From Rhizobiales bacterium UBA3584 (GTDB lineage Bacteria; Pseudomonadota; Alphaproteobacteria; Rhizobiales; Devosiaceae), in assembly GCA_002375765.1 (NCBI GenBank), contig DFMV01000040.1, positions 45,967 through 109,966 of the forward strand: a DNA stretch of 64,000 nucleotides. The letters are read 5' to 3'. Shown here in pieces: positions 47,099 to 64,000 of the stretch (positions within the stretch are counted from its first letter, which is position 1; each line of letters opens with the position of its first letter). A program made the translations under genes and the position numbers. The notes under the pieces are model-generated. The model saw only the letters and a list, made by a program, of their open reading frames with translations. It was not told the DNA's origin and ran no database searches.

Positions 47099-48523
47099 AT
47101 GCTTGAGGGATTGATCGTGCTGGAGCGCTCGGGCGCGCCGCTGCCCGAACAGATCTACCGTGCCGTCGGCGAGGCGGCACGGTCGGGCCGGCTCAAGGCC
47201 GGATCGGTGTTGCCCAGTTCGCGGCAATTGGCGGCGGGCTTGGGGATTTCGCGCAATTCGGTCAATGCGGCCTATGAGTTGCTGCGGGCCGACGGAGTGA
47301 TCGCGGTGCGGGCCGGTGCCGCGCCGCAGGTGGTGGCGCGGGCCGAGCTGGAGGCAGCAGAACTCGATGGGGCTGGGGCACATGTGAGGCTGTCGCAGCG
47401 CGGGGAGGCGCTGGCGCGCGATCTGCGCAATTGGCGGGGCGGGCGGCACGCGGGGCAACTCGAACCCGGCGCACCCGACGAGGCGCTGTTTCCCGCCGAT
47501 CTGTGGGCGCGAACCCTGAGGCGGGTGGCGCGGCAGAAATTCGGGGAGGCGGCGATCTATGGCGATGTCGAGGGATTGCCCAGGCTCAAATCGGCGCTGG
47601 CCGAACATCTGGCGCGGCATCGGGGGGTGAGCGCCACGGCGAGCCAGGTCATCGTCGTGCCGTCGATCCAGGCGGGATTGTCGCTGGCGGCGCAGTGTCT
47701 TGCCGATCCAGGCGAGGTCGGAGTTGTGGAATCGCCGGGCTATTTCGGAGCGCGGACGGCGTTTGCCGGGGCGGGGCTGGTGACAAAGGCGCTGGAGGTG
47801 GATGAGCAGGGCGCCGATCCGGCGGCGCTGGCCGGCAGCGGGGCGCGGCTGGTCTATGTCACGCCCTCGCACCACTATCCCACCGGCGCGCGGATGAATT
47901 TGCAGCGGCGCATGGATCTGCTCGAAGCGGTGCGGCGCGAAGGGGCGGTGGTGCTGGAGGACGATTACGACAGTGAATTTTTATGGCAGGGGCGGGCGAT
48001 TGCCGCCCTGCAGGGGATCAGCCGTGGCGGGGAGGTGATCTATTTGGGCACCACCGCCAAGAGCCTGCTGCCGGGGTTGCGGCTGGCCTATATGGTGGTG
48101 CCCGACACGTTGGCGGGGCCTCTGAGACAGGCGCAGCGCAATATGGGCCTGCGGGTCAATATCCACGCGCAGGCCGCTTATGCCGAATTGATCGAAAGCG
48201 GGGCGCTGGTCACGCATTTGAAACGGATCGCGCGGCTATATGAGGCGCGCGGGCGGCTGCTGGTCGAGACCTTGCGTAAAAGGCTCGGCGGGGCCATCGA
48301 TATCGCCATGCCAATGGGCGGGCTGCAGACCGTTATGGGGTTTGCCGACCGGGTCGATGATACCAAAGTCGCCGTCCGGCTGGCCGAGGAAGGCTTTGAA
48401 ACGCCAGCGCTTTCGAGTTATTGCGCTGGGAACACGCGCAAGGGCCTCGTGGTCGGGTTTGCCGATGCGACCGACAAACGGGTGGCCCGGTTTGCGGGAC
48501 TTCTCGAAGGGCTCCTTGTTTGA
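47099..48523 (+). CDS. MocR-family regulator (GntR HTH fused to aminotransferase fold)
   Basis: 474 residues: a GntR-type winged helix at 10-80 (LPEQIYRAVGEAARSGRLK, LPSSRQLAAGLGISRNSV) and a fold-type I aminotransferase domain with the PLP-lysine region GTTAKSLLPGLRLAY and EDDYDSEF. Likely senses PLP or a related amine and controls the divergent PNPOx-like gene. Its stop codon lies inside the palindrome that precedes metH. Confidence 0.92.
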   Translation: MLEGLIVLERSGAPLPEQIYRAVGEAARSGRLKAGSVLPSSRQLAAGLGISRNSVNAAYELLRADGVIAVRAGAAPQVVARAELEAAELDGAGAHVRLSQRGEALARDLRNWRGGRHAGQLEPGAPDEALFPADLWARTLRRVARQKFGEAAIYGDVEGLPRLKSALAEHLARHRGVSATASQVIVVPSIQAGLSLAAQCLADPGEVGVVESPGYFGARTAFAGAGLVTKALEVDEQGADPAALAGSGARLVYVTPSHHYPTGARMNLQRRMDLLEAVRREGAVVLEDDYDSEFLWQGRAIAALQGISRGGEVIYLGTTAKSLLPGLRLAYMVVPDTLAGPLRQAQRNMGLRVNIHAQAAYAELIESGALVTHLKRIARLYEARGRLLVETLRKRLGGAIDIAMPMGGLQTVMGFADRVDDTKVAVRLAEEGFETPALSSYCAGNTRKGLVVGFADATDKRVARFAGLLEGLLV

Positions 48524-48543
48524 CATAAAGATATCTTTATGTC
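48522..48543. promoter_or_regulatory. 22-bp perfect palindrome upstream of metH
   Basis: Arms GACATAAAGAT and ATCTTTATGTC, no spacer, overlapping the last two bases of the MocR stop codon. Its position 45 bases before metH and its form agree with the methionine-cycle repressor sites (SahR/SamR type, ArsR family) described in Proteobacteria. A small hairpin GCAGG-ATCAC-CCTGC follows at 48557-48571. Confidence 0.75.
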
Positions 48544-48588
48544 TTTGTATCACCTCGCAGGATCACCCTGCCAGAAACGGATTTTGTC

Positions 48589-52422
<3,834 letters not shown>

Positions 52423-52496
52423 CCTGCCGTCTCGACATCGGGCCTCCAACGTCTTATGAACCCGGCTAAATCCTAGCCTTGGGGGCCCATCCGCTC

Positions 52497-53345
52497 ATGC
52501 CCAATTTCATCCTCACTTTGTCCTGTGCCGACAAGCCCGGGATCGTCTCTGGCGTGACGAGCGAATTGTTCTCTTTGGGCGCAAATATCGCCGAGTCCAA
52601 CCAGTTCTGGGACAGGGATACCGACAAGTTCTTCATGCGCATCGGATTTACAGCGCCCGGTGGCGTGGACAAGGATGCCGTGGAACGGGCGCTCAAACCG
52701 GTGATCGAGCGGTTCGAGATGAAGACCGCCGTGATCGATGAAGCGCGGGTGCCGCGAATCGTCATCCTGGTCTCCAAATTCGACCACGCCATGCTGCATC
52801 TGCTCTACCAGATCAAGGTGGGCGCGCTGCGGGCAGAGGTCGCTGCGATCATCTCCAACCATGAAGATGCGCGCTCGATCGCACAGGCTGAAGGCGTTCC
52901 GTTCTATCATCTGCCCGTCGCCAAAGGACAGAAGGCGGAGCAGGAGGCCGAGGTGCTCAAAATCATCAAGGCGGCGGATGCCGATCTTGTGGTTCTGGCG
53001 CGGTATATGCAGATCCTGTCCGACCAGCTTTCAACGCGGCTTTTCGGCAAGGTCATCAATATCCACCACTCGTTCCTGCCCTCGTTCAAGGGCGCCAAGC
53101 CCTATCATCAGGCCCATGAGCGCGGCGTGAAGATCATCGGCGCGACGGCCCATTACGTAACCCCGGATCTGGACGAAGGCCCGATCATCGAACAGGAAAC
53201 AGCGCGGGTGACGCACGCGATGAGCCCTGAGGATCTGATCGCGGTGGGCCGCGATATCGAGAGCCGGGTTCTGGGCCGGGCGGTCAAGAGCCATCTTGAA
53301 AACCGCGTCATGCTCAACGGGCACAAGACAGTCGTTTTCGCTTAA
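52497..53345 (+). CDS. purU: Formyltetrahydrofolate deformylase
   Basis: 282 residues: N-terminal ACT domain ([20 protein letters not shown]) and formyltransferase-like catalytic domain with the Asn-His-Asp set ([24 protein letters not shown]). Hydrolyses 10-formyl-THF to formate and THF, balancing one-carbon pools with MetH and FolD. The ATG at 52497 fits the family N-terminus. Confidence 0.94.
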
Positions 53346-53356
53346 AGGAGTTCGCC

Positions 53357-54241
53357 ATGACCGCACGGATTATCGATGGCAAGGCGGTTGCCGCTTCGGC
53401 AATCGAGCGGGTCAAGGCAGGTGCGGCGGCGTTTACGGCGGCCAACGGGATGCCGCCGGGGCTGGCGGTCGTGCTGGTGGGCGAGGATGCGGCGAGCCAG
53501 GTCTATGTGGCGTCCAAGGGCCGGATGGCCAAGGAATGCGGGTTTTATTCGGTCCAGCATACGCTTGCGGCAGACACCACGCAGGATGATCTTCTGGCGC
53601 TGATCGGCACGCTCAATGCCGATCCGGCCATCCACGGCATTCTGGTGCAATTGCCGTTGCCCGGCCATCTGGACGAACGCACGACCATCGGCGCGCTCGA
53701 CCCGGCCAAGGACGTGGATGGGCTCCACGATGTTTCCATCGGCCGGCTGGCATCGGGGCAGGTGGACAAGACGCTGGTGCCGTGTACGCCCAAAGGCTGC
53801 ATGGAGCTGCTCGATACTGTCTATCCCGACGGGATTTCGGGGCTGACGGCCGTTGTCGTCGGCCGATCCAACCTTGTGGGACGTCCGGTGGCAGCGCTGC
53901 TCCAGCACGCCAATGCCACGGCCACCATCGCCCATTCGCGGACCCGCGATCTGCCCGGTCTGTGCCGGGGTGCCGATATCGTTGTGGCGGCGATCGGGAG
54001 GCCCCAATTCATCAAGGGCGACTGGATCAAACAGGGGGCCACGGTGATCGATGTGGGCATCAACCGCATCGCCGCTCCTGAAAAGGGCGAGGGCAAGACA
54101 CGGCTGGTCGGCGACGTCGATTTTGCCGCCGCGTCCGAGCGCGCCGGGGCGATCACGCCGGTGCCGGGCGGGGTGGGGCCGATGACGATTGCCATGCTGA
54201 TGGCCAATACGCTCAAGGCCGCCGAGCAGAGCGTTTCCTGA
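53357..54241 (+). CDS. folD: Methylenetetrahydrofolate dehydrogenase/cyclohydrolase
   Basis: 294 residues. The catalytic Lys is in [13 protein letters not shown], with family blocks [22 protein letters not shown] and [15 protein letters not shown]. Interconverts 5,10-methylene- and 10-formyl-THF. It lies 11 bases after purU with AAGGAG upstream, hence the same operon. Confidence 0.96.
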
Positions 54242-54253
54242 CCTTCTGGCCGG

Positions 54254-54267
54254 TTGATCTGGATCAA
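54254..54267 (+). promoter_or_regulatory. Perfect FixK/FNR box
   Basis: TTGAT-CTGG-ATCAA, an exact match to the consensus, centred about 66 bases before the start of a 46-codon gene. It starts 12 bases after the folD stop. Confidence 0.8.
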
Positions 54268-54326
54268 TTAAACCAAGCGAAAACAGGCGCATAACACTTC
54301 CATCACTCTTATTGATGGAGGCTGAA

Positions 54327-54467
54327 ATGTCCTTTGAAACCGCCCTCGTTGTCGCTGCCGTCGTCGTCGCTTTCGGCGTGTTCGGGCTGGCGCTGGGCTA
54401 TGTCAACTGGATTGCCGGCGCCCGCGCCATCACCAGTGAGGAAGAGCTTGCAGCGCGCGCAAAGTAG
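54327..54467 (+). CDS. 46-residue single-pass membrane protein under FixK/FNR box
   Basis: Reads MSFETALVVAAVVVAFGVFG followed by LALGYVNWIAGARAITSEEE and LAARAK. One membrane helix (about 5-28) then a charged cytoplasmic tail. GGAGG at 54317-54321, 5 bases before the ATG, is strong; an in-frame ATG at 54315 is less well placed. I do not recognise the family. Size, topology and the upstream oxygen-response box suggest an accessory subunit of a respiratory complex made at low oxygen, in the manner of CydX or CcoQ (inference). Confidence 0.8.
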   Translation: MSFETALVVAAVVVAFGVFGLALGYVNWIAGARAITSEEELAARAK

Positions 54468-54479
54468 CGCGCTGCGGGG

Positions 54480-54506
54480 TCTCCCGATCCGCTGTACGTC
54501 GGGAGA
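54480..54506 (+). terminator. Hairpin after the small membrane protein gene
   Basis: Perfect 8-base stem TCTCCCGA and TCGGGAGA with an 11-base loop, 12 bases after the stop. No T-run follows, so termination is likely but not certain. Confidence 0.5.
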
Positions 54507-54627
54507 TCAGGGGCGGCGCATCAGGGGAAAAATGCAGCCGCCCATTTGCCCATGAAGGTGCGATCCGCTCGCCGCGCCGCAGCGCTTTTTCTGCAGCGCC
54601 GAAGCGGGCCCTTCATGGGTTTTTTCT

Positions 54628-56535
54628 TCAGCCCAGCCGCGCCTTCGGCATCAGCGTCTGGATGGCCATGAAGCGGGCGAAATCCTTGGCAGCGCGCGGG
54701 CTCCATGCGGTTTCGGCTATGGCCGAGAGGCGCGGATAGGTCAGATGATCGAACAGGGCCCGATTGGCGAGGTTCTCGCTCCACAGGCATGATTGGATGC
54801 CGATCAGCTTGTCCTGCACCTCGGCCGGCCAATCATGAGCCGGATCGAAGGCGTAGCAGGTTTCGACCGAGACCGTGCCCGCCCAGCTGGCGCCCGGCTC
54901 CCACCACTCGGTCGATTGGGCCATGTCGAAATAGGCGTGTTCGGCGGGAGCCAGCACCACGTCATAGCCGGCCAGCGCCAGATCGCGGCCGCTCTCCGAT
55001 TTCTTCCAGGCGACCAGATAGGAGCGGTCGGGATCGACCCCGCCGCCCAATGCAGCTTCTTCCCAGGCGCCGGTATCCTTGCCGTATTTTTTCAGCAGGG
55101 ATTGTATCTGCTTGAGGAAATGGGACTGAAGCTCGAAGGTGCCCTGCCAGCCATTGGGCCCCTGCAGGGATCTGGCCTGGGGCGATCCGGCCCAGGCTTC
55201 GTCGGCCACCTCGTCGCCGCCGATATGGATCCATTTGGCCGGAAACAATTCGACCAGCGTCTTTATGACCGCTTCGAGGAATTTATAGGTCTCGTCCAAA
55301 GCGGGGTTGAGCGCGTTGTTGGGGAAATACTGCACCGAGCGGTAGATGCCAGTCTCGTCGGGATCGACGAGTTGGGGCAGGGCCTTGAGCACGCAATAGC
55401 AGTGACCGGGGATATCGATTTCGGGGATGGTCTGGATACCCAGGCTCAGCCCGTGATCGACCATGGCCGTCACATCAGCGGCGCGATAGACCAGCCCGTG
55501 CCGTTCAAACGGCGAGCCGAGCAGGGGCGGCAGGATTTCGCCGGGGCCGCGCCATGCGGCCTTTTCGGCAAGTTCGGGATAGTCGGGCACATCGAGCCGC
55601 CAACCCTCATCGTCGTTGAGGTGGATATGGAAGCGGTTGAGCTTGTTCCAGGCCATGGTGTCGAGGAAAGCGATGATCTCTTCGGTTGTGTACACCTGAC
55701 GCGCCACATCGAGATGGCTGCCGCGCCAGTCAAAGCGCGGGGCGTCCGATATGGTGCCCGATGTCGGGAAGGTGAAATCTTCGGGGTGTTTTTGCGCGCC
55801 GCGCAGCATCTGGGCCAGGGTTATGAAGCCGTGCTGGAAACCATCGGCATCGCCGGCTCTGAGAGTCACGGTTTCTCCGAAGACGATCTCGTAGGCGCCT
55901 TGGTCGAGCCGTGCTCCGGCCAGGCACCGGACCGGCAGTCCGTCGCCGAACAGGGTTTCGCCGGGAAACAGGCGGCGGGCCAGATCGGCTGTGACTTCGT
56001 ATGAATTATAGGCGAGCTCGGGTCCCTCGCCGAAACCGATCATGGCTGGCACCGAATTGCCGGTGACCTCCACGGCGGCCGGGAAGGGGATGACGCTGAT
56101 CGCCGTTTCGCCCTCAGGCAAGGGCCGGCGGGCCGGGTGGACGATGGTGGGTGAACCGGGCTCTCCCTTCAGCGTCATCGGGGCGATTTCGGGCAGCACC
56201 ATGGTGCCATCGGCCAGCGTCACGGCGGCGGATTTGGGGCCGTAGGTGTAGTGGCGCAGGGTGTGGGAAATCTGTTTTGCCACGATCTCCCAGCGTCCGC
56301 CGGGTTCGAGAACGAAGCCGTCCTCGGGCGCGAGCAGGTGGTAATTGGACAACTGCTCGAGCAACCGCGCGCCGCCGATGGGACTGTCGGGCTTGATGCG
56401 GAACAGCGAGGTAACGCCGAGGGCAAAGCCTTCGACCTGCTCTTGTCCGGTGTTGACCAGGGTGATCTTGAGCTGGCCGGGGGTCGCGATTTCCGGGTTC
56501 CAGTCCGCTTCGAGGCGGAACGAGGGCGTGGGCAT
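54628..56535 (-). CDS. Beta-N-acetylhexosaminidase, GH20
   Basis: 635 residues. N-terminal beta-sandwich domains precede the GH20 barrel: FDWRGSHLDVARQVY, HLNDDEGWRLD, the catalytic Asp-Glu pair in HIGGDEV, and Trp-rich substrate blocks (WKKSESG, WEEAALGG). No signal peptide, so cytoplasmic, as expected for an enzyme acting on imported N,N'-diacetylchitobiose. Length and N-terminal layout resemble the Vibrio GlcNAcase of the ChiS locus. Read on the minus strand, 45 bases after the hybrid kinase gene, probably in one operon. Confidence 0.93.
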   Translation of the reverse strand: MPTPSFRLEADWNPEIATPGQLKITLVNTGQEQVEGFALGVTSLFRIKPDSPIGGARLLEQLSNYHLLAPEDGFVLEPGGRWEIVAKQISHTLRHYTYGPKSAAVTLADGTMVLPEIAPMTLKGEPGSPTIVHPARRPLPEGETAISVIPFPAAVEVTGNSVPAMIGFGEGPELAYNSYEVTADLARRLFPGETLFGDGLPVRCLAGARLDQGAYEIVFGETVTLRAGDADGFQHGFITLAQMLRGAQKHPEDFTFPTSGTISDAPRFDWRGSHLDVARQVYTTEEIIAFLDTMAWNKLNRFHIHLNDDEGWRLDVPDYPELAEKAAWRGPGEILPPLLGSPFERHGLVYRAADVTAMVDHGLSLGIQTIPEIDIPGHCYCVLKALPQLVDPDETGIYRSVQYFPNNALNPALDETYKFLEAVIKTLVELFPAKWIHIGGDEVADEAWAGSPQARSLQGPNGWQGTFELQSHFLKQIQSLLKKYGKDTGAWEEAALGGGVDPDRSYLVAWKKSESGRDLALAGYDVVLAPAEHAYFDMAQSTEWWEPGASWAGTVSVETCYAFDPAHDWPAEVQDKLIGIQSCLWSENLANRALFDHLTYPRLSAIAETAWSPRAAKDFARFMAIQTLMPKARLG

Positions 56536-56580
56536 GGTGGCAGCCTTTGTAACAATTCTGAGGTTTTGGGGGCGGTCGGG

Positions 56581-59500
56581 TCAGGCGTTCTGGGTGCCTG
56601 CCGGTTCGGTTTCTCCCCGAGGCCTGGGGAGAATGTGCTCGCGCACCAGGTCGCGCAGGGTCTGGGCGAGAGTGCGCAGGTTTTCGTATTGGGCGGCGAG
56701 TTCGGCGTTCTGGCCGATCTGGGCTTCGACGTCGGTCAGGACGAACTCGGCGGTCTGGATCACGTCACGCCAGCGCGGGTTGGCGGGCAGGGTTTCGATC
56801 AGCAGATATTTGTCCAGGGTTCGCGCCTGCAGCGAGGAGCGATCGAGATTGACGCGCCAGACGCCGCTCTTTTCGGCGAAATCGATCTTGGAGCCGCCCT
56901 TGGCGCGGCGCCACAGGGCGATCGATTGGGTCATGACGGCCACTATGGTGTCGCGATAGACCTCCTTGCCCGGCAGTGGCGCGGTGTCGGGAGCAGCTGG
57001 GCTGGAGGGCGTTGCCTGCTGTTCGATCAGCACCGGCCCGACGGTATCGAGCACGCCCTGCACCGAGCGGACCAGATGGTCGGTCTGCTGGCGCGTTTCG
57101 GCCGTATCGGGGGTGATGACCAGCGCAAAGCCGCCGCCCGCATCGGCCTCTATCTCGAAGGCATTGAGCAGGACGGGATTTCCCGAGCGGCCCATGGGCA
57201 CATCGTCGAGCGCCACGCGGCCCTCATCGGCAATGGTGCGGGTCATGGCGTCGACCATTGTGGGGGTCAAAAGATCGCTCAGCAGCGTCTTGCCGGGGTC
57301 GATGACACGGCCGGCAAGCACGGCGGCAGCCTGGTTGGCGTAGGTGATGCGGCCGGTTTCACTGACCCCGAGCAGACCCGCTTCGAGCGTATCGAGCAAT
57401 CTCGCCATGCGCTGCTGGGAGAGCCGCAGGGCGTCCTCGACCTGCACGCGGCGCTCGATTTCCGATTTCAGTTCGATGTTTTCACGCGCCGTGCCGCGAG
57501 CCCGTCCAGCTTCGAGGAGCGTTGCGATGCGGGCGAGAAGCTCGTCCTTGACGAAGGGTTTGACCACGTAATCGTTGGCGCCGTGCTCGAACCCGGCGAT
57601 CACGTCGCGGGTGCGCGAGCGGGCGGTGACCATAATGATGGGCAGATCGAGCAGGCCATAGCGGTCGCGCAGGCGTTTGGCGACCTCGAGCCCGCCCATC
57701 TGCGGCATCATCACGTCGAGCACAACGAGATCGGGCTTGTGGTTTTCTATCGAGGCCAGGGCGTCCATGCCGTTTTCGGCGGCGCGCACGATATAGCCTT
57801 GAGGAGCCAGAACGTTGCGCAGCACCTGAATGTTGATCGGCTCGTCATCGACAACGAGGATCACCGGTGCCTCATCGGAATTGGCGGCGTTCATTTCGGC
57901 GGTGTCGGCCAAAAGCATGCCCATGGTCTCCCGCAGGCCCTCGCTGCGCTCGCCATAGGTGAGGATTTCCGCTTCGGTGGCTTCGGTTTCCGCGACCGGG
58001 ACTTCCAGGACGAAGCGCGAGCCCTTGCCCAGATCGGACTGTGCGGCCAGCTTGCCGTGCATGGCGCTGGCCAGTTGGCGGGCGATGGTTAGGCCCAATC
58101 CCGCGCCGCCGGGCTTGGCGATCATTTCGGGGCTTTCGCCGCGTTCGAGCGGCTGGAAGATGCGCTCGAGACTGTCGGGTGCGATGCCGACGCCGGTGTC
58201 GGTGACAGCCACGGCAACGGTGTCTCCGGCCCGCCATGCGGTGATCGAGATCGACCCCTGGTCGGTGTATTTGATGGCGTTGCCGAGGAGATTGTAGAGC
58301 ACCTGCTCGAAGCGCACCGGGTCGGCCATCACATAGGGAATGGTTTCGGGGATATCGACGTCGAGCGTCACCGGTTCGCCGCGCAGCAGCGGTTCGGCAA
58401 GCTGCATGACGTTGCGGATCGAGGTCGCCACATGGACCGGGTGGATGTCGAGGCGCATGCGGCCCTGCCGGATGCGGTAGATGTCGATGAGATCATCGAC
58501 CAGCCGCGAGAGGCGCCGGGCCGAAAAGCTGATGAGGTCGAGCTGGCTGCGCTGGGGCGGGGTCAATTCGCCCACGGCGCCGGCCGAGAGCGTTTCGGAA
58601 ATGCCGATAATGCCGTTCAGTGGGGTGCGCAATTCGTGGCTCGTGTTGGCGACGAACGTGTCTTTGAGCCTGTCGGCCTCTTCGAGCGCGGCGTTTTTTT
58701 CCTCGATCAGTTTGACGTGGCGTTCGAGCTCGACGTTCTTTTGCCCGATAAGGGACAGCTGGGCGCGGATGGCATCGCGCATGCGCTTGAAGCTTTCGGC
58801 GAGCCGGCCCAATTCGGTCGGCCGTTCCACGCTGGGCATTGTCCGTTCCAGATCGCCCGCGGCGATCGATTCGGCCACTTCGGTCAGTTTTTGCAGGGGC
58901 GCGGTCATGGTGCGCGAGAGCAGGTACGCCACCCAGAACAGGATAGGCAGGGCGATGGCGGCGATCATCAGGACAAAGCGCGTCAGCGCTTCGGAATTGG
59001 CAAAGGCCGTGCTGGTCGGCACTTCGGCAACCAGAGACCATCGGGCGTCGCCGAAATTGACCGGTCCCCATGCGGCCAGCGCGCGTCCGCCCGAAAGGCC
59101 CTCTCCGACCAGAGCGGTGGACAATGCGGGCAGGTCGGGTTCGGGCACGGGTACGATTTCCCCGATGGGCAGGTCATAACCGGCGGGTGCGGAAACCAGC
59201 CGCCCATTGCCGGCAATCATGTAGAAATTGCCGGTTTCCTCTTCCTGGGACTGAACGATGGACCCGACGCCGCTGGCGGGCAGGCGGAAGATCGCAACGC
59301 CGCGCGGGCGTTGATAGAACTCGACCCGCACGGCGACATAGGCGCCGAACGCTCCGGTTTCCGGGTCGAGGGCAAAATCTGAGATGCGGATGGGATCGGT
59401 TCCGGCAAGGGTGGCGGCGGCCAGTTGTCCCAGCGTGCTGTCGGCCAGTTCGCCATCGAGATCGCCGCCCAGATAGGCGTCCTTTTCGACCGAATAGACG

Positions 59501-60015
59501 ACGCGCCCATCGGTGTTGACCAGATAGAGATTGTCGAATTCGGCCGAGCGGATGAAGCTCGAATATTCCTCGTGGAAGCGCTGGTGGGCGTTGGCGTATT
59601 CGAGGGCGTTGGAGACCATCGCGTCGGTGTCGGGTGAAAATTCGCCATCGCTCGCCGGAGCCTGGCCATTGATGCCGAAGATGGCCTGGAGCACATCACG
59701 GGCCGTTTGCGGATCGGGGTCGATCTGGCGGAAGGCGTAGGAAAAGCCGTAGAAATCGCCGATGGAATAGCGGACGGCGTTCGATTTGGTCAGCGAATCG
59801 GCCTGCCGGAAAGCGAAGGTCAGATACTGGTCGAGCTCGGAGCGTTTGGCGTCGCGCACGAAGGCGAGGCGGGCAAAGGTTTCATCCTCGACATTGGCGT
59901 TGAGGATGGAAAAGAACACGGTCGCCGTCAAAACCAGCGGAATGGTGGTGATGGCGATCAGAATCGCGAACAGGCGGCCGCGGAAGCCCTTCGGTGCCAG
60001 CCCAAACGCGCCCAT
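56581..60015 (-). CDS. ChiS-like hybrid sensor histidine kinase with C-terminal DNA-binding region
   Basis: 1144 residues. In order: membrane helix (13-35), long periplasmic double-Cache sensor, second membrane helix (about 340-365), HAMP, coiled coil, HisKA with phospho-His near 459 (SHELRTPLNG), HATPase (NLLGNAIKYTDQG, GGAGLGLTIA), receiver with Asp near 765 (VVLDVMMPQMGG), a PAS-like domain (about 870-960), and a ~110-residue C-terminal domain (MTQSIALWRRAKGGSKIDFA, GVWRVNLDRSSLQARTLDKY, NPRWRDVIQTAEFVL). This ending matches what I know of the DNA-binding end of Vibrio cholerae ChiS, a membrane kinase that binds promoters directly. Two arginines six residues apart (DRSSLQAR) correspond to the conserved pair there. 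It is divergent from an oligosaccharide-binding protein gene, as in Vibrio. Confidence 0.85.
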   Translation of the reverse strand: MGAFGLAPKGFRGRLFAILIAITTIPLVLTATVFFSILNANVEDETFARLAFVRDAKRSELDQYLTFAFRQADSLTKSNAVRYSIGDFYGFSYAFRQIDPDPQTARDVLQAIFGINGQAPASDGEFSPDTDAMVSNALEYANAHQRFHEEYSSFIRSAEFDNLYLVNTDGRVVYSVEKDAYLGGDLDGELADSTLGQLAAATLAGTDPIRISDFALDPETGAFGAYVAVRVEFYQRPRGVAIFRLPASGVGSIVQSQEEETGNFYMIAGNGRLVSAPAGYDLPIGEIVPVPEPDLPALSTALVGEGLSGGRALAAWGPVNFGDARWSLVAEVPTSTAFANSEALTRFVLMIAAIALPILFWVAYLLSRTMTAPLQKLTEVAESIAAGDLERTMPSVERPTELGRLAESFKRMRDAIRAQLSLIGQKNVELERHVKLIEEKNAALEEADRLKDTFVANTSHELRTPLNGIIGISETLSAGAVGELTPPQRSQLDLISFSARRLSRLVDDLIDIYRIRQGRMRLDIHPVHVATSIRNVMQLAEPLLRGEPVTLDVDIPETIPYVMADPVRFEQVLYNLLGNAIKYTDQGSISITAWRAGDTVAVAVTDTGVGIAPDSLERIFQPLERGESPEMIAKPGGAGLGLTIARQLASAMHGKLAAQSDLGKGSRFVLEVPVAETEATEAEILTYGERSEGLRETMGMLLADTAEMNAANSDEAPVILVVDDEPINIQVLRNVLAPQGYIVRAAENGMDALASIENHKPDLVVLDVMMPQMGGLEVAKRLRDRYGLLDLPIIMVTARSRTRDVIAGFEHGANDYVVKPFVKDELLARIATLLEAGRARGTARENIELKSEIERRVQVEDALRLSQQRMARLLDTLEAGLLGVSETGRITYANQAAAVLAGRVIDPGKTLLSDLLTPTMVDAMTRTIADEGRVALDDVPMGRSGNPVLLNAFEIEADAGGGFALVITPDTAETRQQTDHLVRSVQGVLDTVGPVLIEQQATPSSPAAPDTAPLPGKEVYRDTIVAVMTQSIALWRRAKGGSKIDFAEKSGVWRVNLDRSSLQARTLDKYLLIETLPANPRWRDVIQTAEFVLTDVEAQIGQNAELAAQYENLRTLAQTLRDLVREHILPRPRGETEPAGTQNA

Positions 60016-60124
60016 CCTCGCTTCTCCCCTTCCCGGCCGAGCCCCTCGCTACGGCCTTTGACATCGTCTATTCATATGGGGATGGTACAATACATAAAGC
60101 CGGTCACACCCCTTAACGTCGATT

Positions 60125-60171
60125 TTGACGGTTTTGCCGGTTTTGGGTGCGCAATTGACGGAAAAGCACCC
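60125..60171. promoter_or_regulatory. Repeats in the divergent promoter between kinase and binding-protein genes
   Basis: Direct repeats TTGACGG at 60125-60131 and 60155-60161, exactly 30 bases (about three helical turns) apart. An inverted repeat GGGTGC (60145-60150) and GCACCC (60166-60171) encloses the second copy. These are the best operator candidates in the 293-base gap; nothing else is recognisable there. Confidence 0.5.
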
Positions 60172-60308
60172 GTGACAGAACCCTGCCTTGCCAGCCCACA
60201 ATGGTCCCCACGCTTTTCGGCGTATCCCGGCGCATGTGCCGTCGGGGAGGGAACATCTGTCAGCCGCGACGAAGGGGTCGCGGTGCAACTGGAGGGAGTT
60301 CAACACTC

Positions 60309-61982
60309 ATGACTGCCAATTTCTTCAAGGGCGCGCTGCTGGCCAGCGTTCTGGTCCTGCCGGCCGGGTTGGCCCAGGCGCAGGACGACGACCGAGCCAT
60401 TCTCACCATCGTACCCCAGCAGCTGACCGCCTGGGTCGAGAACTACAATCCGTTCAATACCACGACCGTTCTGCCCACCGTCATCGACTTCATGTATGAG
60501 CCGCTGGTGATCTTTAACGCCCTGCAGGGCGGCACGCCGGAATACCGGCTGGCGGAATCGTATGAATATTCCGACGATCTTCTGACCCTTACCTTCACCC
60601 TGCGCGAAGGGCTGACCTGGTCGGACGGCATGCCGCTCACGGCCAACGATGTGGCGTTCACATTCGATCTGATGGCCGAATATCCGGCGCTCGATGCCCG
60701 CGCGGTGTGGCCCAAGCTCGACAGCGTCACCGCCGTCGACGACCGCACCGTTGAAATCCGAATGAAAGAGGTCGATGCGGGGCTGATCTACCAGCTTGTG
60801 CAGGTCTATACGGTACCCGAACATATCTGGGCCGAGGTGGGCGATCCGGTGACCTATTCGAACAACACCACCGTGGGTTCGGGGCCGCTGACCGAAATCG
60901 AGCGTTTCACGCCGCAGGAATATATCCAGTGCGCCAACCCCAATTACTGGGACGCGGAAAGTCTGCATGTCGATTGTGTCCGCCTGCCCCAGCTGGCCAA
61001 CAACGATCAGGTGCTGACGGCCGCGGCCAATGGGGAGCTCGACTGGTTCGGTTCGTTCCTGCCCGATATCGAGCGCACCTATGTGGGCACCGATCCGGAC
61101 AATCACGGCTACTGGTTCCCGGCCGGCTCGCCGGTGTTTTTCTCGCTCAACATGGAAACGAGCGAGCCGGGGCTCGATGAAGCGTTCAACGACGTCGCGT
61201 TCCGCCGCGCCTTCTCGATGGCCATGGATCGTCAGGCGATGGTCGATATTGCCGGTTATGGCTATCCGACGGTCAATGATTATCCCTCGGGTCTTGGCCG
61301 GGCGTATCACTCCTGGAACAACCCCGAAGTCGAGGCCGAATATGGGCAATATACCCAGTTCGATATCGAAGGCGCCCGTGCGCTGCTCGATGAGGCCGGG
61401 TATTCAGACGTCGATGGCGACGGGTTCATCGACAGCCCGAGCGGCGAGCCGATCGCGTTCTCGATCATCGTGCCGAACGGTTGGACCGACTGGGTCAATA
61501 CCGTGCAGTTGGCTGTCGAGGGCCTGAACGAGTTGGGCATCAACGCTTCGATGCAGACCCCGGAAAGCCCGGCCTGGACCGATCAATTGATCGCCGGCGA
61601 CTATCAGGCGGCCATCAACTCGGTGACCACTGGTGTGACCCCGCACTACTTCATGGACCAGTCTCTGCATTCGCGGCACATCGGCCAGAGCCGCTTCCAG
61701 TCGTCGCGCTACACCAACCCCGAGCTCGATGCGGCGCTCGATGCGTTCAACGGAACGACGGATGAAGCCGAGCAGACCGAGATCATGAACGAGATCCAGA
61801 TGCTGATCGCTGCGGATATGCCGCTCATCAACGTCTTCAACAACCCGCTCTGGTACGAGTACAACACCGCGCGGTTTACCGGGTTCTTCAACGCCGACAA
61901 CCCCGTTGCGCGCCCGGTGGTCTATTCGGGTGTTCCCGAGCGCCTGTTGCATCTTCTGGCCCTGCGGCCGGTCGAAGACTGA
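60309..61982 (+). CDS. Periplasmic oligosaccharide/peptide-binding protein, SBP_bac_5 family (CBP-like)
   Basis: 557 residues with a signal peptide ending near LAQAQ. SBP_bac_5 blocks are clear: LTFTLREGLTWSDGMPLTAN, DVAFTFDLM, VGSGPLTEIERFTP, FRRAFSMAMDRQAMV. The family covers peptide and oligosaccharide importers. The length equals that of the Vibrio chitin-oligosaccharide-binding protein CBP. With a GH20 and a ChiS-like kinase next to it, chitobiose is the likeliest ligand (inference). GGAGGGAG at 60291-60298 serves the start. Confidence 0.85.
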   Translation: MTANFFKGALLASVLVLPAGLAQAQDDDRAILTIVPQQLTAWVENYNPFNTTTVLPTVIDFMYEPLVIFNALQGGTPEYRLAESYEYSDDLLTLTFTLREGLTWSDGMPLTANDVAFTFDLMAEYPALDARAVWPKLDSVTAVDDRTVEIRMKEVDAGLIYQLVQVYTVPEHIWAEVGDPVTYSNNTTVGSGPLTEIERFTPQEYIQCANPNYWDAESLHVDCVRLPQLANNDQVLTAAANGELDWFGSFLPDIERTYVGTDPDNHGYWFPAGSPVFFSLNMETSEPGLDEAFNDVAFRRAFSMAMDRQAMVDIAGYGYPTVNDYPSGLGRAYHSWNNPEVEAEYGQYTQFDIEGARALLDEAGYSDVDGDGFIDSPSGEPIAFSIIVPNGWTDWVNTVQLAVEGLNELGINASMQTPESPAWTDQLIAGDYQAAINSVTTGVTPHYFMDQSLHSRHIGQSRFQSSRYTNPELDAALDAFNGTTDEAEQTEIMNEIQMLIAADMPLINVFNNPLWYEYNTARFTGFFNADNPVARPVVYSGVPERLLHLLALRPVED

Positions 61983-62016
61983 TCCTCCGACCTGGGTGCC
62001 TGTGGCATCCGCTGCA

Positions 62017-62048
62017 CTGGACCCCGGGAATAAATCCCGGGGTGACAG
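62017..62048 (+). repeat. Palindromic repeat between binding-protein and permease genes
   Basis: CTGGACCCCGGGAATAAATC then CCGGGGTGACAGG, the 72-bp repeat core. A strong CCCCGGGA..TCCCGGGG hairpin in the mRNA. Confidence 0.8.
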
Positions 62049-62086
62049 GCTGGAGGGTGACCCCGGCCTTTTCCTCACAATCACCC

Positions 62087-62117
62087 TGTCATTCCGGGAC
62101 TTGTTCCCGGAATCCAG
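62087..62117 (-). repeat. Palindromic repeat between binding-protein and permease genes, inverted
   Basis: TGTCATTCCGGGAC-TTGTTCCCGGAATCCAG. With 62017-62048 it fills most of the 179-base gap inside an otherwise single operon. Confidence 0.8.
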
Positions 62118-62161
62118 CAGCGGCTTTTCCGCGAGCGCTGCTTCGGCAAGGAGCACTACCA

Positions 62162-63139
62162 ATGGCTTTTATCCTGCGCCGTCTGGGCTTTTACATCGCT
62201 GCGTTTTTCGTCGCGGCGACGATCAATTTCATGCTGCCGCGACTGATGCCGGGCAACCCGATCGACATCATGTTCGCCCAGGCGCAACTGACAATTCCGC
62301 CCGAAGCGCGGGCTGCGCTGATCGAAACCTTCGGGTTTGCGACAGGCCCGCTGCACGAGCAGTATTTCTCCTATCTCAAATCGGTTTTTACCGGCGATCT
62401 TGGCTATTCGATCCGGTTTTTCCCCCAGACCGTCAATGAACGGCTCGGCTACGCGCTGCCCTGGACGTTGCTTCTGGCCGGGTGCGCGACGGTTCTCGCC
62501 TTTGCCTTTGGCACGCTGATGGGGATTTTTGCCGCCTGGAAGCGCGGCGGAGCGTTCGATGCCGTCATCACGCCCGCTTCGCTGGCGCTGCAGGCCATTC
62601 CGCCGGTGGTGATCGCCATTGTCGCGCTGTTTGTCTTCGGTGTGGCGCTGCGCTGGCTGCCGACCGGCTATGCCTTCGATCCAAGTCTCGATCCGGGCTT
62701 TACCTGGAGCTATATCAGCTCGGTCTTCGTCCACGCGCTCATGCCGGTCATCTCCCTGATGATCGTTTTTGTGGGCGGGTATCTGGTCACCATGCGCAAC
62801 AACATGATCGGGCAACTGGGCGAGGACCATGTGATCATGGGACTGGCCAAGGGGCTTTCGGAACGCCGGGTGAAGTTCAATTACGCCGCCCGCAACGCGC
62901 TTCTGCCCTCGGTCACCTCGCTGGGGCTGACGCTGGGGGCGATCCTTGGCGGGTCGCTGGTTACCGAAGTGGTGTTCAATTATCCCGGGCTCGGCCAGAC
63001 GCTCTATATCGGCATCGTCACCCGTGATTATCCGCTGATCCAGGGCCAGTTGCTCATCATGACGCTGGCGATCCTGACCGCAAACCTCATTGTCGATCTG
63101 GCCTATGTGCTGCTCGACCCGCGGCTTCGGAGGGCCTGA
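62162..63139 (+). CDS. ABC transporter permease, DppB/OppB family
   Basis: 325 residues with about six membrane segments. The N-terminal FILRRLGFYIAAFFVAATIN and the C-terminal block GSLVTEVVFNYPGLGQTLY are typical. The EAA loop follows EDHVIMGLAKGLSERRVKF. AAGGAG at 62148-62153 precedes the ATG. It is part of the putative chitobiose importer with the neighbouring binding protein and second permease. Confidence 0.93.
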   Translation: MAFILRRLGFYIAAFFVAATINFMLPRLMPGNPIDIMFAQAQLTIPPEARAALIETFGFATGPLHEQYFSYLKSVFTGDLGYSIRFFPQTVNERLGYALPWTLLLAGCATVLAFAFGTLMGIFAAWKRGGAFDAVITPASLALQAIPPVVIAIVALFVFGVALRWLPTGYAFDPSLDPGFTWSYISSVFVHALMPVISLMIVFVGGYLVTMRNNMIGQLGEDHVIMGLAKGLSERRVKFNYAARNALLPSVTSLGLTLGAILGGSLVTEVVFNYPGLGQTLYIGIVTRDYPLIQGQLLIMTLAILTANLIVDLAYVLLDPRLRRA

Positions 63140-63143
63140 GACG

Positions 63144-64000
63144 ATGGTTGAAACCCTCAAAGTCTTTCTGCGCAACCGCAAGGCGGCGTTCGGGCTGATT
63201 ATCGTTCTGGCCTATGTGGCTGTCGCCGTTTTCGGGCCGATGATCCTTGGCGCCGACCCCATGGCGCGGGTGGGACGTCCGCACATGTCGCCCGATGGCG
63301 AGGCGTTGATGGGCACGACGCGGATGGGCCGCGATGTCTTTGCGCAACTGATCTACGGAACACGCACCTCGCTGGCCGTCGGGTTTTTCGCCGGGTTGTT
63401 GGTGGTGGTCATCGGCACCGTTTTGGGCATCGCCGCTGGCTATTTCGGCGGGCTGATCGACGAGATCATCAATTTCTGCACCAATGTGGTGCTGGTCATT
63501 CCCCAGCTTCCCCTGCTTCTGGTCATTGCTGCTTTCGTTGGCCAGACCTCGCCCTTCGTCATCGCCATCATCATTGGGGTCACCTCATGGGCGTGGGGGG
63601 CGCGGGTGACACGCGCGCAGACCATGACGTTGCGCCAGCGCGAATATATCCAGGCGTCCGAATTGATCGGCGAGCCCGCCCACCGGATGATCTTTGTGGA
63701 GTTGCTGCCCAACCTGCTCTCGATCATCGGGTTCAATTTCATCGGTTCGGTGACCTACACGATCATCACTCAGGCGACGCTCGAATTTTTAGGCCTGGGC
63801 AATCCCATGTCGGTTTCGTGGGGCACCATGCTCTATCACGCGCAGAATTCCTCGGCGATCACCGTGGGGGCGTGGTGGGAAGTGCTGGCGCCGGCTGTCG
63901 CCGTGGCCGGTATCGGCATCGGACTATCGCTCCTCAATTTCGGCGTCGATGAAATCTCCAACCCCCGCCTGCGCACGCTCGGCACCATAGCGGCGGCGGC
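63144..64000 (+). CDS. ABC transporter permease, DppC/OppC family, 3' end outside window
   Basis: Open from the ATG at 63144 to the window end (285 codons). It starts MVETLKVFLRNRKAAFGLI. Family blocks: MGTTRMGRDVFAQLIYGTRT, TSWAWGARVTRAQTMTLRQR and the EAA loop EYIQASELIGEPAHRMIFVE. Four bases after the first permease gene. ATPase genes are expected just beyond the window. Confidence 0.92.
   Translation, partial: MVETLKVFLRNRKAAFGLIIVLAYVAVAVFGPMILGADPMARVGRPHMSPDGEALMGTTRMGRDVFAQLIYGTRTSLAVGFFAGLLVVVIGTVLGIAAGYFGGLIDEIINFCTNVVLVIPQLPLLLVIAAFVGQTSPFVIAIIIGVTSWAWGARVTRAQTMTLRQREYIQASELIGEPAHRMIFVELLPNLLSIIGFNFIGSVTYTIITQATLEFLGLGNPMSVSWGTMLYHAQNSSAITVGAWWEVLAPAVAVAGIGIGLSLLNFGVDEISNPRLRTLGTIAAA

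Follow-up and report, generated by a model that had tools for sequence, protein, structure and literature searches.

An alphaproteobacterial ChiS-CBP locus with a candidate operator, and relatives of ChiS that lack the kinase

Layout of the locus

We analyzed a 64,000-nucleotide stretch of DNA from Rhizobiales bacterium UBA3584 (Devosiaceae), which is called the window below (contig DFMV01000040.1 of assembly GCA_002375765.1, positions 45,967 to 109,966). At its right end, the gene for a ChiS-type hybrid sensor kinase stands beside genes for a chitin-oligosaccharide-binding protein (CBP) and an importer. The features are as follows, in window coordinates.

54628..56535, minus strand: GH20 beta-N-acetylglucosaminidase, 635 residues (Glyco_hydro_20, E 4.2e-92; best PDB match 6EZR, E 3.7e-96)
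56581..60015, minus strand: ChiS-type hybrid sensor kinase, 1144 residues, with periplasmic dCache, HAMP, HisKA/HATPase_c, receiver, PAS and ChiS DNA-binding domains
56671..56964, minus strand: ChiS-family DNA-binding domain of the kinase, residues 1018-1115 (7KPO, E 2.7e-24)
57526..57861, minus strand: receiver domain, residues 719-830, with D767 (PF00072, E 3.8e-32)
57991..58665, minus strand: histidine kinase core, residues 451-675, with phosphoacceptor H460 (PF00512, PF02518)
59026..59622, minus strand: periplasmic dCache-like sensor, residues 132-330 (PF02743, E 4.8e-9, under the family cut-off)
60113..60160, minus strand: candidate ChiS operator (motif discovery and pattern positions)
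60309..61982, plus strand: CBP ortholog of the SBP_bac_5 family, 557 residues (6LZU, E 4.9e-163; 1ZTY, E 4.1e-161)
62162..63139, plus strand: ABC permease, OppB/DppB type (BPD_transp_1, E 6.8e-38)
63144..64000, plus strand: ABC permease, OppC/DppC type, running into the contig end, which is also the window end (contig C67)

The GH20 gene lies directly behind chiS, with a gap of 45 bp, and both run leftward; cbp and the permease genes run rightward from the other side of a 293-bp divergent region. An earlier note on this DNA had listed a cytoplasmic GH20 enzyme, a hybrid kinase, an SBP_bac_5 protein of 557 residues and two Opp/Dpp-type permeases, and all of them were found where it had placed them. 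The GH20 product has no visible signal peptide and is cytoplasmic by its sequence, and the CBP product has a visible one. The PDB entry 6EZR is titled Nag2 and presumably comes from a Vibrio. Beyond the window, the operon can be followed in another genome of this species that is a single contig; there it continues with genes for two ABC ATPases, a GNAT acetyltransferase and a protein of 164 residues that had no Pfam match. The first ATPase is 100% identical to one at the start of contig C6 of the source assembly, and another ATPase match lies just behind it. The closest named loci belong to Pelagibacterium (Devosiaceae), and kinase residues 985-1144 are 89% identical to a protein named Pelagibacterium nitratireducens. 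A reading of the open reading frames of 48000-64000 and a scan of five downstream proteins from the same species, a search that was not genome-wide, showed no adjoining response regulator.

The kinase and its DNA-binding domain

In the kinase, the Pfam models for HAMP, HisKA, HATPase_c and Response_reg scored above their cut-offs and those for dCache_1 and PAS below them, and at E ≤ 0.001 nothing matched C-terminal of residue 903. Compared with chain 7KPO, residues 1018-1115 gave 43 identities over 98 columns, and the sole other PDB match at E ≤ 1 had an E value of 0.19. Loss of R1068, R1074, K1078, R1090 or R1092 abolishes DNA binding of Vibrio cholerae ChiS, as the available text of its description states (PMC8092284). 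All five have conserved counterparts here (R1059, R1065, K1069, R1081 and R1083). An AlphaFold2 model of residues 1005-1144 was built from a 26-row alignment of window and locus sequences and reached a mean predicted local distance difference test score (pLDDT) of 76. Its single Foldseek match in the PDB at E ≤ 0.001 was again 7KPO (7.8e-6, prob 1.00). The beta-sheet insertion of 7KPO, between two helices, was modeled without strands at a pLDDT of about 58-62. The earlier note had proposed that the kinase ends in a domain resembling the ChiS DNA-binding region; the sequence match to 7KPO, the five residues and the Foldseek match bear this out, and the structural match to ChiS that it had called for was found.

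Additionally, the protein has transmembrane character with domains in the order HAMP-HisKA-HATPase_c-receiver-PAS and is genetically linked to CBP and the importer. Together with the C-terminal domain, these features support the assignment of the 56581-60015 product, by its sequence, as a full-length relative of ChiS. One genome of each species was scanned with a sequence pattern, which gave 346 relatives of the DNA-binding domain; the best 80 loci were kept, a choice that favored close relatives. Sixty-two of these loci have a regulator with a kinase, and an end-to-end alignment was made of 62 kinase-bearing ChiS sequences (45 alphaproteobacterial, the window included, and 17 from Vibrionaceae). 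R1065, K1069, R1081 and R1083 were invariant in all of them; the position equivalent to Vibrio R1068 is arginine in 23 and lysine in 22 of the 45 alphaproteobacterial sequences.

A candidate operator between chiS and cbp

Motif discovery by expectation-maximisation on 20 of 58 divergent regions (57 loci and the window) returned a 24-bp motif close to AAAATCGGCAAATTCGTCAAAAC. It lay on the same strand in 20 of 20 regions, with a log-likelihood of 281.4 compared with 76.0-90.2 in eight first-order Markov-shuffled sets. Because the training regions are related by descent, the shuffles overstate significance and the other controls weigh more. The best intergenic site was the top-scoring place of the whole locus (7-20 kb; 64 kb for the window) in 54 of the 58, and in 34 of the 38 untrained loci, several of which are near-copies of trained ones. 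The best 24-mer of the window, at 60121-60144, lies 164 bp upstream of the cbp start, and copies of CGKYAA stand at 60113-60118, 60125-60130, 60134-60139 and 60155-60160.

Pairs of CG[GT][ACT]AA on one strand, 9 bp apart, occurred in 47 of 75 regions against 0.12 expected, and in all 17 from Vibrionaceae. Other repeat spacings were 30 bp (24 regions), 21 bp (14), 39 bp (13) and 12 bp (8). For Pchb of V. cholerae, a helically phased pair of ChiS sites is described in the portion of the source at hand (PMC13316777), and the 21- and 30-bp spacings would suit such a pair. A separate motif run on Vibrionaceae gave CCCGTTAAAAACGTTAAA in 11 of 11 regions (log-likelihood 135.5, compared with 47.4-49.5 in five shuffled sets); relative to cbp, its strand agrees with that in the kinase-type alphaproteobacterial loci. 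Another run, on 12 loci whose regulator lacks the kinase (see below), a set that contains near-copies, gave CATACCGTCAATTTCGTT (190.1 compared with 54.0-59.3 for shuffled sets), at one place in 11 loci and elsewhere in L056.

In the 3.95-Mb source genome, CGKMAAAAYCGKCAAAA at ≤1 mismatch had a single match, the window site, and the reversed control had none. A looser pattern gave one further site at 1 mismatch (C35:51200); it falls inside a gene that reads by eye as encoding a dehydrogenase subunit, and we regard it as a chance match. For 20 CBP paralogs (from 19 genomes without the domain and from G100, described below), the upstream 550 bp contained no 9-bp pair on either strand, and the best motif score at these promoters was 0.8 compared with 11.2-34.1 in 22 ChiS loci of the family, trained loci included. 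A scan of 60000-60330 for promoter and terminator consensus sequences gave no match. Taken together, the sequence comparisons support a plausible candidate ChiS operator within 60016-60308.

The site also varies with the regulator. Where the position equivalent to R1068 is arginine, the base two before the second CG is A in 21 of 23 loci, and where it is lysine, the base is T in 21 of 22; in the window, the corresponding places are residue 1059 and the 24-mer at 60121-60144. The 22 lysine loci form one clade of the CBP tree, so this pairing counts as a single event and gives a lead only.

The binding protein and its ligand

The CBP ortholog scored 540-547 bits against the chitooligosaccharide-binding proteins of the PDB and 209 bits against the next family, and 244 of 528 aligned residues are identical to chain 6LZU, which we took for a variant of VhCBP, as its numbering and contacts agree with that protein. 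Ligand contacts of VhCBP have been mutated, and the accessible part of that study ascribes GlcNAc (N-acetylglucosamine) specificity mainly to R436 and F437 (PMC8449061). The equivalents of N204, S221, W363, D365, R436 and F437 are identical in the window CBP; of the main sugar-binding residues W363, D365, R436, F437 and W513, four are identical and W513 is replaced by tyrosine. We aligned 75 CBPs (74 loci and the window), one of them a fragment outside the ligand columns. W363, D365, R436 and N204 were invariant in all 74 sequences that cover these columns. F437 was retained by all 17 CBPs from Vibrionaceae and, among the alphaproteobacterial ones, by 41 of the 45 from kinase-type loci and 8 of the 12 from kinase-less loci.

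The NCBIfam models for dipeptide-, nickel- and oligopeptide-binding proteins stayed under their cut-offs (Opp4A 112.9 compared with 650, NikA 93.6 with 393, DppA 23.2 with 1005). The earlier note had named a peptide-specific binding protein as evidence against its reading; with these cut-offs unreached and the pocket residues kept, nothing in the sequence points to one. A GlcNAc oligosaccharide is the likely ligand, judged from these comparisons. A second CBP-like protein, about 50% identical, is common in Devosiaceae, mostly in genomes without ChiS (for example G024:C1:114637-116277).

Distribution of the locus

A gene neighborhood survey, which the earlier note had proposed, placed CBP beside the regulator in 74 of the best 80 loci. 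The two genes were divergent in 57, all alphaproteobacterial, and codirectional in 17, all from Vibrionaceae (in L073 at a distance of 5.8 kb). Of the six loci without CBP, four are cut by contig ends, one has a domain-only frame (L037) and one, from a Vibrio, has none in its 20 kb (L076). The importer set was complete, on one strand and within 7 kb in 67 of the 74 CBP loci, and a GH20 gene scoring >400 bits was nearby in 10 of the 80. A gene for a GNAT acetyltransferase is a frequent neighbor of the importer operon (25/80 loci, for example L113:11974-12435).

Within Devosiaceae, 30 of 136 genomes, including the source genome, encode the DNA-binding domain, and 69 of 136 encode a CBP-like protein at E ≤ 1e-120. 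These proteins fall into two bands of identity, 62-100% (29 genomes) and ≤54%. An ortholog at ≥62% was present in 29 of the 30 genomes with the domain and in none of the 106 without it, on comparing the tables by eye. The exceptional thirtieth genome, G100, has a short domain frame only and no such ortholog. This frame (L037:9875-10345, Devosia sp. ZB163, G100/L112) encodes 157 residues, the DNA-binding domain with a short lead, and is divergent from a GH20 gene; it could be a soluble derivative or a relic. More broadly, 9 of 385 evenly drawn alphaproteobacterial genomes, the source genome among them, encode the domain, with at most 13 first-look candidates scored per genome. Within the 3.2-kb locus, homology to kinase or receiver was absent from seven of the nine and present in two. 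A recent transfer from Vibrio was considered and rejected, as the Vibrionaceae and alphaproteobacterial CBPs were separated with a Shimodaira-Hasegawa-like approximate likelihood ratio test (SH-aLRT) support of 100%. The locus presents the chitin-sugar circuit as an old, patchily kept module outside Vibrionaceae.

Relatives without the kinase

Besides the 62 kinase-bearing loci, 14 of the 80 have a complete regulator frame without a kinase, and four were left undecided. Two of the latter are cut by contig ends (L010 and L047) and one is the 157-residue domain-only frame (L037). The fourth, from Veronia (L075), has a 388-residue frame and was kept out of the kinase-less set in view of kinase homology upstream in the locus. 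The 14 comprise one Devosia metagenome-assembled genome (L007) and 13 loci of Azospirillaceae and related Rhodospirillales. The Devosia protein consists of dCache, membrane segment, HAMP, coil and DNA-binding domain. In the five proteins read from the other group, a membrane helix comes first, followed by a dCache-like domain, a second helix, a proline-rich linker and the DNA-binding domain. Ten of the 13 frames have 474-536 residues, and three are longer, with an unsure start. CBP matched in 13 of the 14 loci (in L051 as a piece at a contig end; L055 is cut short). All five essential residues were kept in the 10 DNA-binding domains aligned, and a modest model of one kinase-less protein (pLDDT 70, predicted template modeling score 0.54) matched dCache sensor domains and 7KPO.

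A CBP tree of 74 rows, built by a quick method, required at least two changes between kinase-bearing and kinase-less regulators, even from its starred branches alone. Loss is the simpler direction, because the Vibrio and alphaproteobacterial proteins can be aligned over the full length of kinase and receiver. We think it likely that ChiS is essentially a one-component regulator in the membrane that a periplasmic binding protein gates, and that its kinase and receiver were discarded at least twice in alphaproteobacteria. These losses would have occurred in Azospirillaceae and related Rhodospirillales and in one Devosia, perhaps also in two further forms described next (a metagenomic one with dCache, PAS and the DNA-binding domain, and that of G382), while the sensor, the anchor, the DNA-binding domain and the CBP operon were kept, with a CGKYAA-repeat site nearby that is often inverted. 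If so, the full-length ChiS of the window would sense CBP just as directly, and phosphorylation would modify this. Relatives that lack the kinase beside the same partner make kinase-independent switching directly testable in harmless bacteria.

A database search gave eight proteins of about 650 residues (P0022, P0025, P0028, P0031, P0032, P0038, P0040 and P0041); the two examined contain dCache, a membrane helix, PAS and the ChiS domain, without HAMP, kinase or receiver. Locus L133 (G382:C171) encodes a kinase-less regulator with a distant DNA-binding domain, flanked on the same strand by the end of an ABC ATPase gene upstream and a GNAT gene downstream, and is possibly a third independent kinase-less lineage. 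In Niveispirillum (L060), a gene for a GH3 enzyme, which could take the place of GH20, stands between the regulator gene and cbp.

Proposed mechanism and alternatives

We propose that the locus encodes a CBP-gated, membrane-bound ChiS that binds CGKYAA repeats and activates the importer operon for the use of chitobiose, a reading that we hold to be highly probable. CBP would meet GlcNAc oligosaccharides in the periplasm, and whether it is loaded would determine the state of the sensor that the membrane-anchored ChiS exposes there. ChiS would then use its C-terminal domain to bind the directly repeated CGKYAA copies that lie between the divergent transcription units, and would switch on the neighboring operon of CBP, two permeases and two ATPases. 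Imported chitobiose would be split inside the cell by GH20, and the GlcNAc would be used via NagA; nagA is present in the source genome and fits GH20 metabolically. Phosphotransfer would not be the output path, and the role of the intact kinase and receiver would probably be to tune DNA binding. The gene set, the domain order, the DNA-binding domain, the conserved operator candidate, the pocket residues and the phyletic pairing rest on sequence or structure. From these we infer DNA binding, the direction of control, the contact between CBP and ChiS and the identity of the ligand. V. cholerae ChiS can dispense with its His and Asp for Pchb, according to the excerpted report (PMC5519180). Taken with the kinase-less relatives, this makes it likely that the core mechanism is direct, leading from CBP via the sensor and the membrane to the DNA-binding domain. 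The locus bears on a question raised by work on V. cholerae, the switching by a binding protein of a DNA-binding membrane hybrid kinase without need for phosphotransfer, and the operator candidate offers a footprint for locating ChiS regulons. The sequence and structure matches support the overall reading of the earlier note, from ChiS orthology and the DNA-binding domain to a binding protein of the chitooligosaccharide type and a plausible operator.

Several observations speak against this proposal, and they are set out here together with the alternative explanations. H460, D767, the receiver lysine K819, the N-box asparagine and the G1 aspartate were invariant in all 62 kinase-bearing ChiS sequences, with small changes only (one glycine to serine in two alphaproteobacteria, a receiver threonine to serine in five Vibrionaceae), so phosphorylation must matter for something. 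Such strict conservation would suit an ordinary phosphorelay, in which an HPt or response regulator encoded elsewhere receives the phosphate and the C-terminal domain serves a different purpose. However, that domain retains every residue essential for DNA binding, the operator candidate tracks loci with the domain, kinase or not, and not paralogous operons without it, and the system is kept in lineages that have no kinase. We consider a phosphorelay very improbable.

The operator evidence is uneven as well. The intergenic site was not the top of its locus in four of the 58 (L056, L060, L069 and L074), and only 30 of the 58 alphaproteobacterial regions had the strict 9-bp pair on the expected strand. 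At ≤3 mismatches, the genome had 393 matches (196 + 197) compared with 150 (76 + 74) for the reversed control, an excess that makes further weak genomic sites possible. In 9 of 12 kinase-less loci of Azospirillaceae and Rhodospirillales (L049, L050, L052, L054, L056, L058, L060, L061 and L069), the best site was inverted relative to cbp and near the regulator, so that in these loci an element of the same type has a different layout. CGKYAA is thus far a putative ChiS motif, derived from the regions compared here. A conserved site does not name its protein, and both this and the inversions would be compatible with another, unlinked transcription factor that also controls the operon. Nevertheless, sites of this type accompany ChiS in two classes of Proteobacteria and are absent from the 20 paralogous operons, and we judge that explanation to be highly unlikely.

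The control sign could also differ from that of Vibrio, with loaded CBP activating ChiS instead of free CBP silencing it, or with ChiS acting as a repressor. Only the parts are conserved, and an operator between divergent genes could serve chiS itself. However, the orthologous parts, and the same strand of the site relative to cbp in kinase-type loci and Vibrionaceae, make the same logic likelier, and a different sign seems improbable.

With regard to the ligand, the VhCBP contacts E10, N409, F411 and W513 are replaced by Gln, Ser, Thr and Tyr in the window CBP. In the covered alphaproteobacterial CBPs, the W513 position is always His, Tyr or Phe, the N409 equivalent is replaced throughout and F411 in many. 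The W513A change costs 4.2 kcal/mol in VhCBP, as given in the consulted part of PMC8449061, so affinity or ligand length may differ here. Moreover, no GH18 chitinase was found in the source genome (assembly 92.8% complete; GH19 was not searched), so the organism may scavenge oligosaccharides made by others. These replacements and the missing GH18 would agree with the same circuit serving another beta-GlcNAc-containing saccharide in place of chitobiose, such as a cell-wall fragment or a longer oligosaccharide, as physiological signal and substrate. In contrast, the N-acetyl-recognizing R436 and F437 are kept, as are N204, S221, W363 and D365, and GH20 is the neighboring gene. We regard this alternative as unlikely, although of all those considered here we give it the most weight.

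Comparison with known systems

A protein of this kind is in itself no novelty, since the family is in print and automatic annotation already labels relatives "sensor histidine kinase ChiS." The sections available of PMC8092284 describe the DNA-binding-domain family, its fold, several architectures and its spread in diverse Proteobacteria, with 3,242 direct ChiS homologs among 3,829 hits; alphaproteobacterial and kinase-less forms may be among that set. In the open-licence papers searched, we found no description of an alphaproteobacterial ChiS-CBP locus, of the operator candidate or of repeated kinase loss beside a kept partner, and a search on Pelagibacterium and chitin gave nothing on the locus among the matches listed, judged by titles and abstract starts. 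For the locus, this agrees with the earlier note, which knew of no description in Hyphomicrobiales.

The locus shares with V. cholerae ChiS/CBP/chb a kinase with HAMP, histidine kinase, receiver, PAS and DNA-binding domains, a CBP ortholog and an Opp-type importer, and with other Vibrionaceae a similar direct-repeat site upstream of cbp. In contrast, the cbp operon is divergent here and GH20 lies directly behind chiS, whereas cbp is codirectional with chiS in all 17 Vibrionaceae loci with CBP; the earlier note's statement that the arrangement mirrors that of Vibrio was right for the gene set and wrong for the divergence. In V. cholerae, EIIA-Glc acts as a brake, as the passages seen of PMC10208484 report. 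No protein of this family (PF00358) was found in the source genome at its 92.8% completeness, so the brake has no obvious counterpart here.

As in the 7KPO family (Klancher 2021), the DNA-binding domain lies at the extreme C-terminus and matches in fold, but the R1068 position is arginine or lysine in alphaproteobacteria and the sheet insertion has no modeled strands. VhCBP and VcCBP share R436/F437 with the CBP of the window and differ from it at the equivalents E10Q, N409S, F411T and W513Y. Finally, like the transmembrane transcription regulators, ChiS and its kinase-less relatives are membrane-anchored one-protein regulators. A survey of those regulators used Pfam DNA-binding models, and ChiS is absent from its main text as far as that was available (PMC10269533). 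As no Pfam model matched the DNA-binding domain in the proteins scanned here, kinase-less ChiS proteins may have been missed there.

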